From Candidatus Fermentithermobacillaceae bacterium (GTDB lineage Bacteria > Bacillota > Sulfobacillia > Fermentithermobacillales > Fermentithermobacillaceae): DNA of 64,000 bases. Positions 13,786 to 47,306 of this stretch are shown piece after piece. Location of the stretch: assembly GCA_012842685.1 (NCBI GenBank), contig DUSI01000004.1:1-64000 (forward strand), given 5' to 3'. The number at the start of each line of letters is the position of its first letter. Positions within the stretch are counted from its first letter, which is position 1. The notes under the pieces were generated by a model. It was not told the origin of the DNA and did not search any database. It saw only the letters and a program-made list of their open reading frames with translations. The position numbers were made by a program, and so were the translations under genes.

Positions 13786-15120
13786 CTAGAACTCGGTAAC
13801 TCCCGTGAAGTTGAACGCAGGCACGTGGATGGCCGGGACGACGCTGCGACCTGCCCTGTGGAGGTCTTTGCCGACCATGTCCATAGTGCCGAAGACCCTC
13901 AGGGCGCTCTCGGTGAACCTGAGGTTCTTCACTGGCTTTGTGATCCTCCCGTCCTCGACGAGGAACGTTCCGTCACGGGTCATCCCGGTGACGAGCACTC
14001 TCATCGGGTGGGCCATGTTGGTGTAGTGGAACCTGGTGATCAAGATGCCCCGTTTGGTGTTCTTGATCATATCCTCCACGGTCGCATCGCCGGGAGCCAT
14101 GAAGAGGTTGCTGGCCATGGGCCCCCATCCGCCGAAGCCGCCGTGCCCCGTGGGTTTCCGGCCCTCCTTCTTGGCCGTCTTGAAGTCGTAAAGCAGGTCC
14201 TTGACGACACCCTTTTCGACCAGCACGACCTTCTGTTTGGGAACGCCTTCAAGGTCGAATGGCATCGGGAACCCCCTGGGATCGAGACCATCGTCCCAGA
14301 GGCTGAACTGCTCGGCGAAGAGTTTCTCACCGACTTTCCCAGAGAGGAAACTCCGCCCCTCCCTGACGGCTGACGCCGAGAAACCTCCCCTGACCAGGTA
14401 GCCAAGCATGTCGGCAACCGCCCGGGGCTCAAGGATAACCTCGTATTCACCGGGGGGCACAACCTCGGGGTTCTGGGCCGCCTCGCACTTCTCCACGGCT
14501 ATCCTGGCAACTTCGGCCGGATCGATCTCTCGTACGTCAGTGGCCAACGCATCGGCGTATCCCGAACCGGTATCCGACATGACCACCGTGCGTAGGTGAG
14601 CCGAAGTGGAACGGTGGTATGCCCTGACCCCTAGAGAATTGGCGATGCAGATCTCCGACGCGCCTGTTTGGAAAGCTCCGGCGGCCTTGAAACCCTTGGC
14701 CTGCGCGGCGTCGGTTATGATCTTCACACCTCTGGCCCTGTCGACCGGAGAAAACTCAAAGGTAGACTCAAAGAAGGTATTCACTTCCGGGATAGGCTCC
14801 GGCCCGGGGATGCCCTCGAATTCCTCGTTGGGCTTCTGGAGCTCCGCCACCCGGGCGGCGGTCTCAATCGCTTCTTTCACGGCGTCCTCATCTAGAGAGT
14901 TGGTTGAAGCCGTGCCTATTTTCTTCCCGAAGATGACCTTAACCCTCAGGCTGTGGCCTGAATCGGCCACGTTCTGGTGGATGTAGTTGTCCGAGAACCT
15001 TGTGAGATACGATACTCCGCCCGAGAGGAGGACTTCCGTCATATCTCCTGGAGAAGACTCCAGGACCCGTCCCACGATCCGGAGCGCTTCTTCCTTGCCG
15101 AGGAGACCCCTTACTGCCAC
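13786..15120 (-). CDS. TldE/PmbA-type metalloprotease partner (copy 1)
   Basis: 444 residues. TldE subunits form a heterodimeric zinc protease with TldD and hydrolyse small unfolded peptides, in some bacteria maturing RiPPs such as microcin B17. The C-terminal PmbA segments are clear (GFGGWGPMASNLFM, RGILITRFHYTNM, TGMTRDGTFLVEDG, FNFTGVTEF). No HExxxH motif is present, as expected for TldE. The start overlaps the tldD stop by ten bases, so subunits are probably made in equal amounts. A second pair lies at 43515-46288. Confidence 0.9.
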   Translation of the reverse strand: MAVRGLLGKEEALRIVGRVLESSPGDMTEVLLSGGVSYLTRFSDNYIHQNVADSGHSLRVKVIFGKKIGTASTNSLDEDAVKEAIETAARVAELQKPNEEFEGIPGPEPIPEVNTFFESTFEFSPVDRARGVKIITDAAQAKGFKAAGAFQTGASEICIANSLGVRAYHRSTSAHLRTVVMSDTGSGYADALATDVREIDPAEVARIAVEKCEAAQNPEVVPPGEYEVILEPRAVADMLGYLVRGGFSASAVREGRSFLSGKVGEKLFAEQFSLWDDGLDPRGFPMPFDLEGVPKQKVVLVEKGVVKDLLYDFKTAKKEGRKPTGHGGFGGWGPMASNLFMAPGDATVEDMIKNTKRGILITRFHYTNMAHPMRVLVTGMTRDGTFLVEDGRITKPVKNLRFTESALRVFGTMDMVGKDLHRAGRSVVPAIHVPAFNFTGVTEF

Positions 15121-16574
15121 TTTCCGACACCTACCTTCACGCCCCGGAACCTGGCAGGCGCCGCGCCGTGACCTACATGGGCGACCTGGCCGGGCTCACC
15201 CTTGCCGCAGTTGGGAAGACCCCAGAGGCGCCATTCGTCTTTGTTTGCCACGGCATCGCAGGACCTCCAGAACTCGTAGGTTATCCCGGTGTAGTTGGCG
15301 TTCTTGAGCATGGCACCTATGGAGCCATCCTTTATCTCGTAGGCGACCTCCACACCGAACTGGAAGTTCAGCCTCTTGTCGTCTATGGACCAGGACTTGT
15401 TGGTCTCCATGAGGATGCCTTCTTTGGTGTCCTTGATTATCTCGTCCAGCGTCCAGTCACCGGGTTCCAGGTTGATGTTGGTCATCCTGACAATCGGGAT
15501 CCTGTTCCAGCCGTCTGCCCTCGCGGCGCCCGTGGATGTCTCGCCGAGCTCCGCCGCGGTATCCCTGGACGACAGGTAGTTCATGAAGATACCCTTGTCG
15601 ACAATGGTAGTCCGCTGGGCAGGCACGCCTTCATCGTCGAAACCGAAGGAACCCAGGCCTCCTTCGAGAGTGGCGTCAGCAACGATGGTGACGTTCGGGG
15701 AGCCGTACTGGAACGTACCTTTCTTTTCGGTGGTCAAGAAGCTGGTCCCGGCGTAGCTGGCCTCCTGCCCGAAAACACGGTCAAGCTCGATAGGATGGCC
15801 GCAGGACTCGTGGATCTGGAGCGTAAGCTGGGAGCTGTCAAGGATGAGATCCGTGACCGTCTCGGGACACTGCTTGGCCGTGAGGAGTTGGACTGCTTCG
15901 TCGGCCACCCTTTCGGCGTGGTCGAGGATGTTCATGGACTCGACGAATTCCCATCCCCTCGAGGCGTAATCCCCGCCCGCCGAGTTGGGGTAGGAACGCC
16001 GCTGGAGCTCTCCCTTGTCGGCCGCGGTGGCCTCGATACCGGCACCCGTCTCGATCTTTGTCTGCTCTATGTAGCTCCCTTCGGTCGACGCGAAGATCTT
16101 GTCTTCCCTGAGGGCCATGAAGTTGCCCGAAGCGACCCTCACGCCCTTGTTTTGCCGCATGAGGCGGTCGGCTTCGAGGAGGAGGGCGATCTTGTCTTCC
16201 GTCTTAACCGAGAACGGATCGACCTTGCACTTGGACTCCCACTTGGCCGTGACCGGCTCGACTGGCGCCAGAGTCACGTCTTTGTCCCGCTTCACCGTGG
16301 CCGATGCCTTTGCTATTGCCACGGCCTCTTCGGCGACGCGGCGGACCTCTTCTTCGGTTACGCGAGCGCTTGACGAAAAGCCCCAAGCGCCGTCGTAGAG
16401 TACCCTTACACCAAAACCCCTGCTCCTAGACGACCCCAAAGACTCGACATTTCCGTTTCTCGTGCGAACCGTTTCCTGCTTCCTGTCGACGATCCGGATG
16501 TCCGCGTAAGAAGCGCCCAGCTTCTTTGCGACATCCAGCGCCTTGGACGTAAGACCTCTCAAGAACGCATACAC
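15111..16574 (-). CDS. tldD: TldD-type zinc metalloprotease (copy 1)
   Basis: 487 residues. Catalytic partner of TldE. The zinc motif HExxxH is visible as LQIHESCGHPIELDRV in the middle of the chain, and the later GSFGFDDEGV and YAGTSFLT regions match the family. The tail ends at a conserved C-rich GLPNCGKGEPGQVAHVGHG stretch that could supply another metal ligand. GGGAGG is close (three bases) to the ATG used here, so TTG at 16562 is an alternative start. It is divergent from the XPB-type helicase, with 180 bases between. Confidence 0.9.
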   Translation of the reverse strand: MYAFLRGLTSKALDVAKKLGASYADIRIVDRKQETVRTRNGNVESLGSSRSRGFGVRVLYDGAWGFSSSARVTEEEVRRVAEEAVAIAKASATVKRDKDVTLAPVEPVTAKWESKCKVDPFSVKTEDKIALLLEADRLMRQNKGVRVASGNFMALREDKIFASTEGSYIEQTKIETGAGIEATAADKGELQRRSYPNSAGGDYASRGWEFVESMNILDHAERVADEAVQLLTAKQCPETVTDLILDSSQLTLQIHESCGHPIELDRVFGQEASYAGTSFLTTEKKGTFQYGSPNVTIVADATLEGGLGSFGFDDEGVPAQRTTIVDKGIFMNYLSSRDTAAELGETSTGAARADGWNRIPIVRMTNINLEPGDWTLDEIIKDTKEGILMETNKSWSIDDKRLNFQFGVEVAYEIKDGSIGAMLKNANYTGITYEFWRSCDAVANKDEWRLWGLPNCGKGEPGQVAHVGHGAAPARFRGVKVGVGKWQ

Positions 16575-16756
16575 CTCCCGGTGTTTCGGTTTGGCAGCTA
16601 ATACGACAGGGCGTTGGAATTACCCTCCAGGTGGGACTTCTTTGTTGCGCATACCGAAACTTCCTGCATGGGCAGGAGCTTGGTCATGTACGTAGAATCA
16701 CTATTGTTTAATGCGAGCGTTCTTTTCCTTGATCTTGAGATAATCGGGGGGATCAC

Positions 16757-20571: not shown

Positions 20572-21690
20572 CTAGAACAAGATCTTGTGTTTCTGCCACC
20601 CCACGTTGAGCACCATCCCGACCGCGAAAGAATTGGTAAGGAGCGCGGTGCCACCGTGGCTCAAGAAGGGGAGCGGGATCCCCGTGACGGGCATGATCCC
20701 CATGGTCATGCCTATGTTGACCGCAAGCTGGAAGACGAACATGGAGAGCACCCCGCCTGCGACGATGGTCCCAACCCGGTCGGTGGACGTGACGGCGGCG
20801 ATAAGGCAGCGGTAGCAGATCAAGAAATACAGGGCGAGGACGCCCAGGCCTCTCACGAAGCCCAGTTCTTCTCCGACGACGGAGAAAATGAAGTCGGTAT
20901 GTTGCTCGGGGATGAAGTCCAGCCGGTTCTGGGTACCCTGACCCAGCCCCTTACCCCAAACCGAACCGGATCCGATGGCGATCTTGGACTGGAGCACCTG
21001 GTATCCGGTGCCCAGCGGATCGGCGTTGGGGTTAAACAGGGTGAGGAGCCTCTTGAGCTGGTAGTCCTCTAGCGGCAAAGGCATTCCTGCGTAGAAGTGC
21101 AGGCACAGCACGATCGCTATCGCAAGAACCCCTGCAAGAGCGAGTTTGGCAATGGTTTTCCCAGAGGTGCCGCTGAAATACAGGGCGCCTGTGCACAAGG
21201 CTACAAGGACCATGGCGGTGCCCAGGTCGGGCTGACGCATGATAAGAAGCATAGGTACGACCGCCCACGCGTAGTAGGCGCCGAGGGCAAAGATGCCATT
21301 GGGCGGTTCTTCCATCCTACCGAGGATCTTGGCGCAGAAAAGTATCATGACGATCTTGGCGGTTTCCGACGGCTGAAGGTCGAAAAAGCCTAGAGAGAGC
21401 CACCTGGTGGAACCTCCTACTGTCCTCCCTACCAGGAGCACCAGAACCAGGAGAACCCCGTTGAGCCCGTAGAGCCACGGAGACATCTCCACGAGGTCCC
21501 GGTGATCGATGGCGGTACCCAAGAAGAGCACGACCAGCGACACGGCCACCAGGGCTGCTTGTTTCTTGGCGTAATAATGGTCGCCCGAGCCGTGGGTCGC
21601 GCTGTCTATGAGGGGGATAGAAAGAATATCCAAGAGGAGCACGGCGATGATAAGGTACCAGTCGATCCGCCGTACTATCCTTCTCTCAAT
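20572..21690 (-). CDS. rodA: Rod-shape SEDS glycosyltransferase RodA, probable ATT start
   Basis: About 372 residues with roughly ten membrane helices. RodA polymerises peptidoglycan glycan strands together with the class B PBP encoded upstream. SEDS features include TRWLSLGFFDLQPSETAKI, QPDLGTAMV, the loop QSKIAIGSGSVWGKGLGQGTQ, and FIFSVVGEELGF. The first ATG/GTG/TTG in frame is GTG at 21642, but that would cut transmembrane helix 1 in half. Conserved coding (RRIDWYLIIAVLLLD) continues upstream, with no ATG, GTG, TTG or CTG before the in-frame stop at 21733-21735. ATT at 21690 overlaps the minE stop (ATTGA) and is my best start. Confidence 0.88.
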   Translation of the reverse strand: MERRIVRRIDWYLIIAVLLLDILSIPLIDSATHGSGDHYYAKKQAALVAVSLVVLFLGTAIDHRDLVEMSPWLYGLNGVLLVLVLLVGRTVGGSTRWLSLGFFDLQPSETAKIVMILFCAKILGRMEEPPNGIFALGAYYAWAVVPMLLIMRQPDLGTAMVLVALCTGALYFSGTSGKTIAKLALAGVLAIAIVLCLHFYAGMPLPLEDYQLKRLLTLFNPNADPLGTGYQVLQSKIAIGSGSVWGKGLGQGTQNRLDFIPEQHTDFIFSVVGEELGFVRGLGVLALYFLICYRCLIAAVTSTDRVGTIVAGGVLSMFVFQLAVNIGMTMGIMPVTGIPLPFLSHGGTALLTNSFAVGMVLNVGWQKHKILF

Positions 21691-21970
21691 ACGAACGCTG
21701 GGTAACTCGATCGTTGGAGTTCGCGCCTCTCTTTATGGATATTACGGGGATATTGGCAACCAAAGCCCGCTTCCTGTCGGTTTCCTTCCAGGTAAACTCT
21801 ATGCCAGGCCTGTCTATCTCCACATACTTGGAGATAGCCATGATCACTTCGTCTTTTATCTCTTCCATGAGGCCTTGGCTGAGGGACAGGCGGTCCTGCA
21901 TGAGCACTACCCGGAGCCTGTCTTTGGCCACATCCTTTGTCTTTGTCTTTCCACGGAACCAGTTAAACAT
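21686..21970 (-). CDS. minE: Cell division topological specificity factor MinE
   Basis: 94 residues. MinE stimulates MinD ATPase and drives the pole-to-pole Min oscillation. It shows the short N-terminal amphipathic helix MFNWFRG, the MinD-binding region DRLRVVLMQDRLSLS, and a C-terminal dimerisation domain ending VANIPVISIKRG. It lies 15 bases after minD and its stop overlaps the probable rodA start. MinE in a Gram-positive-type genome is typical of several Clostridia and replaces DivIVA-based control. Confidence 0.92.
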   Translation of the reverse strand: MFNWFRGKTKTKDVAKDRLRVVLMQDRLSLSQGLMEEIKDEVIMAISKYVEIDRPGIEFTWKETDRKRALVANIPVISIKRGANSNDRVTQRSY

Positions 21971-28614: not shown

Positions 28615-29211
28615 CTAAACGGTCAGAAGCTCCTCCAGCCTCACTCCCGCAAGCCTGAGGAGCCTGTATACCTTGGGCAAGGGGAGACCAATCACGCTGG
28701 AGAAGTCGCCGTTTACCCTCTCCACAAACATCCCGCCAATGCCCTGGAGCGCGTAGCTCCCCGCCTTATCCATGGGCTCGCCGGTAGAGACGTACCAGGC
28801 GATCTCCTCCTCGGTGAGCGGGCACATGGTCACCTCGGTCTTGTCGAAATCGTCCAGTACTCTCTTTCGCCCCGGATCCCAGAGGGCGACGCCCGTATAC
28901 ACCACGTGAGTCCTTCCGGCGATCTTCTGGAGCATCCTCCGGGCATCTTCAGGGCTTTCAGGCTTCCCCAAGACTTCCCCGTCTATATACACGATGGTGT
29001 CTGCCCCTAGGACGAGCTCGTCCGGCATAATCTCCGCCACTTTGCCTATCTTCCTGCGAGCGAGAAGCCTCACCAGCTGGTGAGGTTCAAGCCCTTCCTC
29101 CTTGACCGCCTCGGCAGCGTGGGAAGGAACGACCACGGGTCTTATCCCCACTGCCTCCAGGAGGGCTTTTCTCCTCGGCGACTCAGAAGCCAGGACCAGC
29201 CTCAATGCCAT
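28615..29211 (-). CDS. maf: Maf family nucleoside triphosphate pyrophosphatase
   Basis: 198 residues. Hydrolyses non-canonical or pyrimidine nucleoside triphosphates (dTTP/UTP type) to monophosphates; overexpression in Bacillus blocks septation. Family motifs are LASESPRRKALLEA at the N-terminus, VLGADTIVYIDGEVLGKPESPEDARRM in two successive parts, and AGSYALQGIGG with FSSVIGLPL near the C-terminus. It follows the DUF4321 gene with no gap. Confidence 0.95.
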   Translation of the reverse strand: MALRLVLASESPRRKALLEAVGIRPVVVPSHAAEAVKEEGLEPHQLVRLLARRKIGKVAEIMPDELVLGADTIVYIDGEVLGKPESPEDARRMLQKIAGRTHVVYTGVALWDPGRKRVLDDFDKTEVTMCPLTEEEIAWYVSTGEPMDKAGSYALQGIGGMFVERVNGDFSSVIGLPLPKVYRLLRLAGVRLEELLTV

Positions 29212-43514: not shown

Positions 43515-44861
43515 TCAGAACATGGTGCTGCCCGTGAACGAGAACTCCTTGATCTTCACGCACGGCAGGACCGAGTCGAAAGTGCCCCACCAGTCTCTGG
43601 TCAGCCTGGCGGTAGAGGCAATTGCCTCAACGCGGTTAAAGGCCTCTACCATAGATTCTGTGAAGCGGAGGTTCTTCACCCTGGCCACTATCTGTCCGTC
43701 CTCGATGAGGAACGTGCCGTCCCGAGTGGTACCCGTGGCGACCACGTTCATCGGCTCGGGGCAGTGAGTGTAGTGGAATCTCGTGACCAGGAGGCCCCGT
43801 TTCGTGGAGCGGAGCATCTCCTCTCTCGTGGAGTCGCCCGTCCCGAAGAACATGTTGGAGGGTCTCGGAACAAAACGGCTACCCCTCATCTCCGACGCAT
43901 GGCCGGTGGATCTCACCCCGTCCTTGGCCGCCGTCCTCGAGTCGTACACAAATCCCCGGGCGACGCCGTTCTCGATGAAAACCACCTTCTTCTTGGGCAT
44001 CCCCTCGGCGTCAAAAGGAACGGCCAGGGAAGCCGGATCAAGCCCGTCGTCCCAGATGGTCACGTTGTCCCCCATGACTTTTTCGCCGAGGCGCCTGGCC
44101 ATAAAGCTCCGCCCGTGCTGTTTGGCGTCGGCCCCAAAGGCTATCATGCCGAGGAACCTGATTAGGTCCGCCAGGGCGTACTCCTCGAAGATGGTATCGT
44201 AGCGCCCCGGAGGAAGCTCTATGGCCTCGGGGAATAAGGTGGCTTTCCCCAGGGCTTCTTCCGCCACCGCCTGGGGGTCGATATCCCGGACGTCTCTGGT
44301 CAGCCGGTCCGCGTACCCGGTGTTATCTCCATCCTGAACGATGGTGCGGAAGAAGGCCTCTGTACCCACGTGGTAAGCCCTCACGCCAGTGGTCGAGGCG
44401 ACGGCCACTTCTCTTACCCCCGTCGAATACGTACCCGAGGCCTGAAGGCCTCTCGCCTTGGCCGCATCGATGACCACGGCGCAGGCCTCGGCACGGTCTC
44501 TGGGCTTCAGGTTGGCCGTCGCGGGGATGTAACAGTTTATCTCCTGGACAGGTTCGGGCTTGGGAAGCCCGGGGAACTCCTTCTCCTCGCCCGAGGCTTC
44601 CATGCTTTCCACTGCCGCCTGGACGGCCCACCGCAAAGAACCGTCATCCAAGAGGTTTGTGGAAGCTATCCCCGTGCTCTTTCCCTTGACCACCCTCACG
44701 GTGAGGGCCTGGACGTGGCGCCTCAGGTTCTGGTGGATGTGGTTGTCGTAATACCTGGTAAGGCTCAGGTCCGACGCAGTGAGGGTAACCGAAGCCTCGA
44801 ATCCTTTGCAAAAGGAAAGGACCTTCTCAAGGACTTTGAGCGCGTCTTCTTTACCGATCAC
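43515..44861 (-). CDS. TldE/PmbA-type metalloprotease partner (copy 2)
   Basis: 448 residues. The same family as the gene at 13786, with shared C-terminal segments RGLLVTRFHYTHC, TGTTRDGTFLIEDGQI and FSFTGSTMF, but clearly diverged (for example KSTGIASTNLLDDG against copy 1's KKIGTASTNSLDED). No HExxxH motif. The GTG start overlaps the tldD stop by four bases. This copy lies downstream of three M42 aminopeptidases in the same orientation. Confidence 0.9.
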   Translation of the reverse strand: MIGKEDALKVLEKVLSFCKGFEASVTLTASDLSLTRYYDNHIHQNLRRHVQALTVRVVKGKSTGIASTNLLDDGSLRWAVQAAVESMEASGEEKEFPGLPKPEPVQEINCYIPATANLKPRDRAEACAVVIDAAKARGLQASGTYSTGVREVAVASTTGVRAYHVGTEAFFRTIVQDGDNTGYADRLTRDVRDIDPQAVAEEALGKATLFPEAIELPPGRYDTIFEEYALADLIRFLGMIAFGADAKQHGRSFMARRLGEKVMGDNVTIWDDGLDPASLAVPFDAEGMPKKKVVFIENGVARGFVYDSRTAAKDGVRSTGHASEMRGSRFVPRPSNMFFGTGDSTREEMLRSTKRGLLVTRFHYTHCPEPMNVVATGTTRDGTFLIEDGQIVARVKNLRFTESMVEAFNRVEAIASTARLTRDWWGTFDSVLPCVKIKEFSFTGSTMF

Positions 44862-46288
44862 GCGCCGACACCTACCTTTACCTTGCGGAACCGCGCCGGA
44901 GCGGCCCCGTGGCCAACGTGAACCACCTGGACCGGTTCACCTTTGGCGCAGCCGGGGGTACCCCAGATGCGCCATTCGTCCTTTCCGGCGACCGCATCGC
45001 AAGAATTCCAGAACTCGGGCGTCATCCCGGTATACGCTGGGTTTTTCAGCATCTTCCCCAGGGAACCGTCTTTGATCTCATAGGCTATCTCTTGACCGAA
45101 GTGGAAGTTCAGCCTCTTGTCGTCCAGGCTCCAGCTCTTGGGGGTATCGACGAAGATACCTTCCTTGGTATCCTTGATGATCTCGTCCAGGGTCCAGTCG
45201 CCTGGCTCAAGGTTTATGTTCGTCATCCTGATGAGAGGGATGTTCTCCCACCCAACCGCCCTCATCGTCCCGTTTGACTCCTGCCCGAACATGGGGGCGA
45301 GCTCCCGGGAGGTAAGGTAGTCGGTGAAGATGCCCTCTCTCACTATGTCCACTCGCTGGGCTTCTACGCCTTCATCGTCGAAGCCGAAACTACCAAGCCC
45401 ACCTGGAAGAGTGGCGTCCGCGACGATGTTCACGCACTCCGAGCCGTAGCGGAAGCTTCCTTTTTTCTCAGGAGTCAAGAACGACGTCCCGGCAAAGGTG
45501 GCTTCCTGGCCTACAACCCTGTCAAGCTCAATCGGGTGCCCACAGGATTCGTGGATCTGGAGCGCAACCATCGAGCCGCCCATCACTATGTCCGTAACCC
45601 CCGTGGGGCAGACGGGAGCCTTGAGGAGCTCCACGGCTTCTTGGGCAAGCTTCTCTGCTTGCGCCTTGAGGTCTAGGCTCTCTACGAACTCGAACCCGCC
45701 GCCGGCGTAGTCGGCGAAGGACCGGGACTGCACGTCGCCCTCTCCCCTCGCCATCACCGCAACGGAACCGCCCGAGTGGACGATGGTCTGCTCTATCTCC
45801 CTGCCATCGGTGGACATGAACTGCTTTTCTTCCCGGTAGCTCATTATGGTCGCGGTGGCCCGGAAGACTCCCGGGATCTCTTTCGCCGCCTTCACCACAT
45901 CGGTGAGAAACTCCACCTTCTCCTCGGGCTTCACCGAGAACGGATCCACCTTGCAGGGCGTCTGCCACCTCGCCCGTTTGGGCTCGAGAGGCGTAAGCGA
46001 GACGCCGTCCCCTTTCTTCCTGAGCGCCGAGGCGTACGCGATCTTCACCGCCTCGTCAGCCGTCTTCTCCAGACTCCTGGGGTCAATGTAAGGGGTCGCG
46101 GCGAACCCCCATGCTCCGTCCACGAGCACGCGGAGGCCGAGGCCGGTGCTCCTCGACACCGAGACCTCGGGCGCACCGTCCGTGCTCACCGATATGGGCT
46201 CCTGGGTTATGGAGACGTACCGGGCGTCGGCATATTCGGCGCCCAGCTTCTGGGCTAATCCCAGTATCCGGTTGAGCTCGGCAAGCAA
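44858..46288 (-). CDS. TldD-type zinc metalloprotease (copy 2)
   Basis: 476 residues. Zinc motif HExxxH in LQIHESCGHPIELDRVVGQE; other family segments are YAGGGFEFVESLDL and LGSFGFDDEGVEAQRV. The tail GTPGCAKGEPVQVVHVGHG is very like copy 1. The start TTG at 46288 is eight bases after GGAGGG. With tldE and three M42 peptidases it forms a peptide-degradation cluster; it starts 25 bases after the first M42 gene ends. Confidence 0.9.
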   Translation of the reverse strand: MLAELNRILGLAQKLGAEYADARYVSITQEPISVSTDGAPEVSVSRSTGLGLRVLVDGAWGFAATPYIDPRSLEKTADEAVKIAYASALRKKGDGVSLTPLEPKRARWQTPCKVDPFSVKPEEKVEFLTDVVKAAKEIPGVFRATATIMSYREEKQFMSTDGREIEQTIVHSGGSVAVMARGEGDVQSRSFADYAGGGFEFVESLDLKAQAEKLAQEAVELLKAPVCPTGVTDIVMGGSMVALQIHESCGHPIELDRVVGQEATFAGTSFLTPEKKGSFRYGSECVNIVADATLPGGLGSFGFDDEGVEAQRVDIVREGIFTDYLTSRELAPMFGQESNGTMRAVGWENIPLIRMTNINLEPGDWTLDEIIKDTKEGIFVDTPKSWSLDDKRLNFHFGQEIAYEIKDGSLGKMLKNPAYTGMTPEFWNSCDAVAGKDEWRIWGTPGCAKGEPVQVVHVGHGAAPARFRKVKVGVGA

Positions 46289-46313
46289 CTGCGGCTCCCT
46301 CCTACGGCTTTCT

Positions 46314-47306
46314 CTAGAACTCTAGCGGGCTCTCGCAGAGGGCCTTGGCCAGGAGCACGCACGCCTCCACGTCTTCCATGTCTACCATCTCGCAGGGGCT
46401 GTGGATGTAGCGGCACGGGATGGATATGCACCCGGCGGGGATGCCGGCCTTGGTGAGCTGTATCGCCGAAGTATCTGTGCCGCCGGCCTCGAGCACCTCC
46501 ATCTGGTACTTGATCCCCTTCTCCTTGGCGATCTTCACCATGTAATTCCTGAGACCCGGGTGGGTTATCACGCTCGAGTCTTTCACCTTAATGGCGGCGC
46601 CGCCGCCGAGGGAGACTTCCATGGGCCTCGCCTTGGGAGTATCGCCCGTCCTGGTCACATCGAAGGCGATCCCAACGTCGGGAGTGATGCCGTAGGCTGC
46701 CGCCCGGGCTCCCCTAAGACCCACCTCTTCCTGGGCAGCGAAGACTGCGTATACGTCGTGGGGCGAGTTCTCAAGCCTCCTCAGGACCTCTATTATCACG
46801 GCGCAAGCCACGCGGGCGTCCATGGCCTTGGCGACGACTCTATCCCCCAGGTCCGCAAAGGGCTGGAAGAAGGCACAAGAATCGCCCACGTTCACCTTCT
46901 TGGCGGCTTCTTCTTTGTTCTTGGCACCGATATCTATGAAGAGTTTCTCGAGCTTGAGGTCCTTGGGGTCGTCCAACCGTTCGGAACCGATCACTCCCAT
47001 GGTCCCGTTCTCGAAGTAGACCCGCTGGCCAAGGGCGACGATGGGGACCACCCCGCCGATGTTGCCGAAACGGACGAACCCCTTATCGTCTATGTGAGTG
47101 ACCATGAGCCCTATCTCGTCCATGTGGGCGTCAAGGAGCACTTTCTTGCCGCCCTTGCCTTTCTTGAGGGCTATGAGGTTCCCCAGGGCATCGACTGAAA
47201 TCTCATCTACATAAGGTTCGACTTCCTTGCGTATCACTTCCCGGACCGAATCTTCGGCCCCCGACGGCCCAAAAGCCTCAGTGACCTTCTTTATCAGATC
47301 CTTCAC
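46314..47306 (-). CDS. M42 family metallo-aminopeptidase (paralogue 1)
   Basis: 330 residues. Dinuclear metal aminopeptidase forming large tetrahedral particles that trim oligopeptides. Metal and catalytic residues: HxD in LLDAHMDEIGL, Asp in AMDARVACAV, EE in AAQEEVGLRGA, Asp in AFDVTRTGD and His in CRYIHSPCEMV. It overlaps paralogue 2 by four bases. Substrate preference (Glu, Leu, Lys types exist) cannot be told. Confidence 0.93.
   Translation of the reverse strand: MKDLIKKVTEAFGPSGAEDSVREVIRKEVEPYVDEISVDALGNLIALKKGKGGKKVLLDAHMDEIGLMVTHIDDKGFVRFGNIGGVVPIVALGQRVYFENGTMGVIGSERLDDPKDLKLEKLFIDIGAKNKEEAAKKVNVGDSCAFFQPFADLGDRVVAKAMDARVACAVIIEVLRRLENSPHDVYAVFAAQEEVGLRGARAAAYGITPDVGIAFDVTRTGDTPKARPMEVSLGGGAAIKVKDSSVITHPGLRNYMVKIAKEKGIKYQMEVLEAGGTDTSAIQLTKAGIPAGCISIPCRYIHSPCEMVDMEDVEACVLLAKALCESPLEF

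Follow-up and report, generated by a model that had tools for sequence, protein, structure and literature searches.

From our analysis of the junction between minE and rodA in Candidatus Fermentithermobacillaceae, the rodA gene probably starts at the ATC codon 21711-21709, inside the last codons of minE, a reading to which we give a probability of about 0.8 from the sequence comparisons. The gene is most likely a weak AUH-initiated gene of the class of infC and sigR, overlapping minE. Across the order Candidatus Fermentithermobacillales, a group of uncultured thermophiles, the start column reads AUC, AUA, AUU or, in one genus, GUG, and never AUG; coding in the rodA frame begins at this column, and 10 of the 17 genomes offer no usual start codon for it. 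The conserved non-canonical start is real, and it lies seven codons from the place assigned to it in a preliminary description of the same DNA. The window, by which we mean the whole 64,000-nucleotide stretch that was analysed, comes from a draft genome of 1.89 Mb in 66 contigs. The named records related to it belong to Candidatus Fermentithermobacillaceae, among them CP062796.1, the closed chromosome of Candidatus Fermentithermobacillus carboniphilus Bu02. This strain is predicted, in its published description, to be a rod-shaped fermenter with MreBCD, RodA and MrdA (PMC10215811). The product of the gene in the window carries the FTSW_RODA_SPOVE domain of the RodA (SEDS) family. A rodA match was found in 99 of the 101 genomes searched, and all 17 Fermentithermobacillales genomes carry this rodA.

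The rodA gene is encoded on the minus strand, and the features of the junction are collected in Table 1. Its frame is closed upstream by a TAA at 21735-21733, after which the codons run AGA GAG GCG CGA ACT CCA ACG ATC GAG TTA CCC AGC GTT CGT ATT GAG AGA AGG ATA GTA CGG CGG ATC GAC TGG TAC CTT ATC ATC GCC GTG, the last of these being the GTG at 21642, which is the earliest in-frame ATG, GTG or TTG. The preliminary description had noticed that rodA coding extends upstream of this GTG, that neither ATG, GTG, TTG nor CTG occurs between it and the in-frame stop, and that the ATT at 21690-21688 shares its T with the minE TGA at 21688-21686; all three observations are borne out, and the identities that it gave to the two genes agree with their Pfam matches.

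Table 1. Features of the minE-rodA junction (positions in the window)
Feature	Position	Strand	Evidence and remarks
minE	21686..21970	-	PF03776 MinE, E 1.5e-20 (Pfam); ATG 21970, TGA 21688-21686; overlaps first 26 bases of rodA
rodA as re-started, 379 codons + stop	20572..21711	-	PF01098 FTSW_RODA_SPOVE, E 8e-95, 318 bits (Pfam)
ATC, most likely rodA start codon	21709..21711	-	sole column that is ATH or GTG in 17/17 genomes of the order; rodA-frame protein conservation starts there
rodA codons 2-7 (ELPSVR)	21691..21708	-	conserved in the rodA frame only
ATT of the preliminary description, here codon 8 (Ile)	21688..21690	-	TTT in 3/17 genomes; without a good Shine-Dalgarno-like match
purine tract AAGAGAGG, possible Shine-Dalgarno, also MinE-coding	21726..21733	-	-6.2 kcal/mol with the anti-Shine-Dalgarno core; 14 nt before ATC, a long spacing

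The junctions of the 17 Candidatus Fermentithermobacillales genomes were aligned without gaps, and the 18 columns of codons 2-7 were shuffled in 20000 permutations; as the shuffle ignores the tree, the permutation counts given here are not strict probabilities. In the rodA frame, the codons 21708-21691 had a mean pairwise amino-acid identity of 0.707 against 0.432 in the shuffled columns, a value reached in 0 of the 20000 permutations. In the same 17 genomes these columns were not conserved in the minE frame (0.338; 18692/20000) or in the third frame (0.322; 19562/20000), and the six codons upstream of 21711 gave no rodA-frame signal (7610/20000). The signal in codons 2-7 persisted within the family alone (14 genomes; 2/20000) and with one genome per genus (0/20000), whereas in the six genomes in which minE has already ended (as ATTGA) it was weak when taken alone (1857/20000) because these are close relatives. 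The codons turn over synonymously, with TTA, CTG, CTT and CTA for leucine, CGT, AGG and AGA for arginine, and CCC, CCA and CCG for proline. The family reads ELPSVR or near it, with ALP or GLP in place of ELP in genus g3, and the sister family reads ELP[ST]G[YH]. Since the rodA-frame signal is present in codons 2-7 and absent above 21711, the coding boundary is at 21711, seven codons upstream of the ATT at 21690; frame-specific conservation thus begins at an AUH codon. Comparing the junction in relatives had been suggested along with the ATT start, and the comparison upholds a rodA without a usual start codon and moves its boundary from 21690 to 21711.

At column 21711 we found ATC in four genomes (our own genus), ATA in four, ATT in six, GTG in three (genus g3) and ATG in none of the 17, so that AUH stands in 14 of them and no other column has a possible start in every genome. 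The codon directly above is ACG in 12 genomes, TCG in two, CTC in two and CCG in one. Ten genomes (our own and nine of the 16 named loci) lack any ATG, GTG or TTG up to the conserved block. The other seven have GTG at 21711 itself, together with a second GTG 15 nt upstream (the three of g3), a GTG 15 nt upstream (two) or a TTG 12 nt upstream (two); four of the 14 AUH genomes therefore have one of these upstream codons in frame, and order-wide conservation over the 17 genomes is seen for none of them. The absence of ATG at 21711 is not significant by itself and is no proof of selection, because the genomes represent about five independent states and because the third base is constrained by the minE frame as well (a stop or Arg).

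As in coupled gene pairs, stop and start are close together in all 17 genomes: counted downstream from the first base of the 21711 codon, the minE stop starts at a distance of 23 nt in seven genomes, 17 in three, 11 in one and 2 in six (range 2-23 nt). In the last six, the stop and the 21711 codon overlap as ATTGA. MinE is longer in the sister family and in genera g1 and g5, and in g2 and g4 the ATT at 21711 makes a TGA in the minE frame; conceivably, the change to ATT shortened MinE in g2 and g4. Along 21686-21711, MinE of our own genus runs 7 codons beyond the place where that of g2 and g4 stops. Sixteen of the 17 genomes have a purine tract that might pair with 16S rRNA at 10-14 nt upstream of 21711; in G008, the remaining one, the best-matching stretch is 5 nt upstream. 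The pairing of the tract, given in Table 1 for our own genome, reaches -11 kcal/mol in four of the five genomes of g4. The tract is weak support for a start at 21711, because it also codes for MinE and is spaced more widely than is usual for the window genes, of which 26 were compared and 21 have 4-9 nt.

Initiation could lie just upstream, at the ACG at 21714 or at another non-AUG codon, with the ATH of column 21711 as an internal isoleucine, and an internal Ile or Val would likewise give ATH or GTG at that column. The occurrence of ACG at 21714 in 12 of the 17 genomes, its spacing from the Shine-Dalgarno tract, which is closer to normal, and the GTG or TTG 12-15 nt upstream in some genomes are in line with such a start. 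Nevertheless, the 21714 column reads TCG, CTC or CCG in five genomes, rodA-frame conservation is lacking above 21711, and the minE frame (NAC GAT) accounts for the ACG, so that we regard initiation there as unlikely. The start at ATT 21690 that the preliminary description proposed is probably wrong on the same comparisons. Column 21690 is ATT, ATA or ATC in all 14 members of the family, and the codon overlaps the minE stop in our own genus; however, an ATH there is expected of a conserved isoleucine, the column reads TTT in the other three genomes, conserved rodA-frame coding continues 6 codons above it, and its best Shine-Dalgarno-like match is poor (-2.5 kcal/mol). A pattern of Shine-Dalgarno and ATTGA matches four places in our own genome. 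The overlap had also been likened to the geometry of ATGA coupling, but the first base of the stop is base 3 of the ATT here and base 2 of the start codon in ATGA, and the frame relation is different; the ATTGA arrangement does recur in relatives, at 21711. What survives of the earlier proposal is a start of AUH type, in a gene without a usual start codon, overlapping the end of minE; the codon named does not.

Two further readings are highly improbable. A MinE-RodA fusion made by ribosomal frameshifting would suit two frames that share 26 bases and have no usual start between them, but no slippery sequence was seen by eye, and the offset of the minE stop varies by genus while the rodA boundary stays fixed. 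A start at the GTG at 21642, the codon that a gene finder would choose, has in its favour that this is the first usual codon in the frame; it would cut into the first membrane helix and drop 23 codons that are conserved across the order. It is scarcely credible that a wrong base in the draft assembly, with its 66 contigs, hides an ATG, as the same ATH column is found in 14 genomes from independent assemblies of several projects, the closed chromosome CP062796.1 among them.

We then compared rodA with other genes and other genomes. The window has 58 ORFs of 60 codons or more for which stretches of six relatives contain homologues. Among them rodA was the only one lacking a usual start above the conserved block (0 of the 57 others), in a survey whose codons were read by eye without a statistical cut-off. 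A survey by BLAST only of coding above the usual start flagged many window ORFs, because overlapping genes and chance lengthen the alignments. By the same test as for the order, none of 64 named rodA loci outside the order lacked a usual start, the test being looser in seven of them, where the alignment began beyond residue 12. From the 82 class genomes outside the order with a rodA match, 53 were covered (13 loci and 40 fetched), and one (G023) had no usual rodA start. The infC gene served as positive control: its start column is ATH in all 16 order genomes with an infC match (16 of the 17 genomes), the 17 copies reading ATC in five, ATT in four and ATA in eight; one genome (G007) has two IF3_N matches. 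The infC starts of genus g4 and of the sister family are less certain, because an ATG also stands three codons downstream of the column in g4 (five genomes) and usual codons lie further upstream in the open frame in the sister family.

Some observations made during these surveys concern other genes and loci. In G007 (L169), the ORF matching window 28618-29211, which we take to be Maf-like, has ATA where 13 of 14 genomes have TTG, and this codon makes it a possible additional AUH start, confined to one genome. In the window, two pairs of adjacent ORFs, at 13789-16619 and 43518-46321 and presumably TldD/TldE-like, look like copies of each other because both match the same ORFs in relatives. One rodA match (G091, L224) has one internal TGA, which may reflect an error, decay or recoding.

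An ATC start of rodA, with no minE ahead of the gene, seems to occur in a second family of the class. In G023 (L218) and its congener G076 (L219), which by search grouping belong to a different order of the class, rodA reads ATC GAA CTG CGG CTT TGG CG[TG] CGC, and conservation starts at the ATC. In G076 a GGGGAGG tract, read from the letters by eye, stands 8 nt before this ATC, and the sole usual rodA start is far upstream. The infC column is also ATC in both genomes (L246 and L247). In G023 the neighbouring upstream gene points away from rodA and no minE lies upstream, and coupling to minE therefore cannot explain this rodA. For the gene upstream of rodA in the second lineage, the first frame compared with Pfam was without a match; another frame, from its look, presumably encodes a membrane pyrophosphatase. 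One more genome, G098 (L228), which is outside the 53, has a rodA without a usual start above the conserved block, and it is possible from the codons present that G098 and G101 (L227), of another family, start rodA at CTG.

With the start at ATC 21711, RodA would begin (M)ELPSVRIERRIVRRIDW. The ordinary initiator tRNA would act, weakly, on a near-cognate AUH codon, and help would presumably come from ribosomes that terminate on minE no more than 23 nt downstream of where the start codon begins. The established AUH-start gene is infC (AUU, AUC or AUA), which encodes IF3 and regulates itself. In Fermentithermobacillales the infC column wanders among ATC, ATA and ATT as that of rodA does, but infC encodes the discriminating factor itself, whereas rodA encodes a cell-wall glycosyltransferase and has its start buried in minE. 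The E. coli gene pcnB has an AUU start and is thus like rodA in being a gene other than infC, although it is a different gene in a different lineage, and we know of no overlap of pcnB with an upstream stop. Few bacterial genes outside infC are, to our knowledge, known to have AUH starts, and we know of start-codon control of the IF3 type only in infC, pcnB and sigR. In ATGA-type stop-start coupling, as in rodA, the downstream gene starts inside the final codons of the gene before it; the frame relation of rodA is different, and the stop overlaps its start codon only in the six ATTGA genomes of the 17. Among the matches listed in a search of the literature on start codons, no title dealt with the start codon of rodA. 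According to PMC5472188, infC starts with ATT in E. coli and with ATC in Streptomyces, and Streptomyces sigR has a GTC start that is held down by IF3. The sigR gene resembles rodA in having a weak start outside infC that is conserved within a lineage, and differs in that its start is GTC and not AUH, that it is experimentally proven and that the product is a sigma factor. By analogy with infC and sigR, IF3 would hold rodA down, and rodA may be under IF3 control. It is a tentative suggestion, which we consider rather doubtful at present, that selection for IF3 repression has kept rodA on AUH in Fermentithermobacillales and, as a separate case, in another family of the class.

Judged by its start column, the AUH-started rodA would be an addition to an already known class of weak-start genes. 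Gene finders mostly accept only ATG, GTG and TTG, and AUH starts are therefore miscalled, with RodA losing part of its first membrane helix. The comparison of codon turnover in overlapping frames can shift a start codon by seven codons without an experiment. In Fermentithermobacillales the case is conserved order-wide and concerns a gene of morphogenesis; infC serves as an internal control from the same genomes, and the set of rodA and infC is suited to asking whether weak starts are selected for regulation. If true, an IF3-repressed rodA with an AUH start would link how fast the cell wall elongates to the state of translation initiation.
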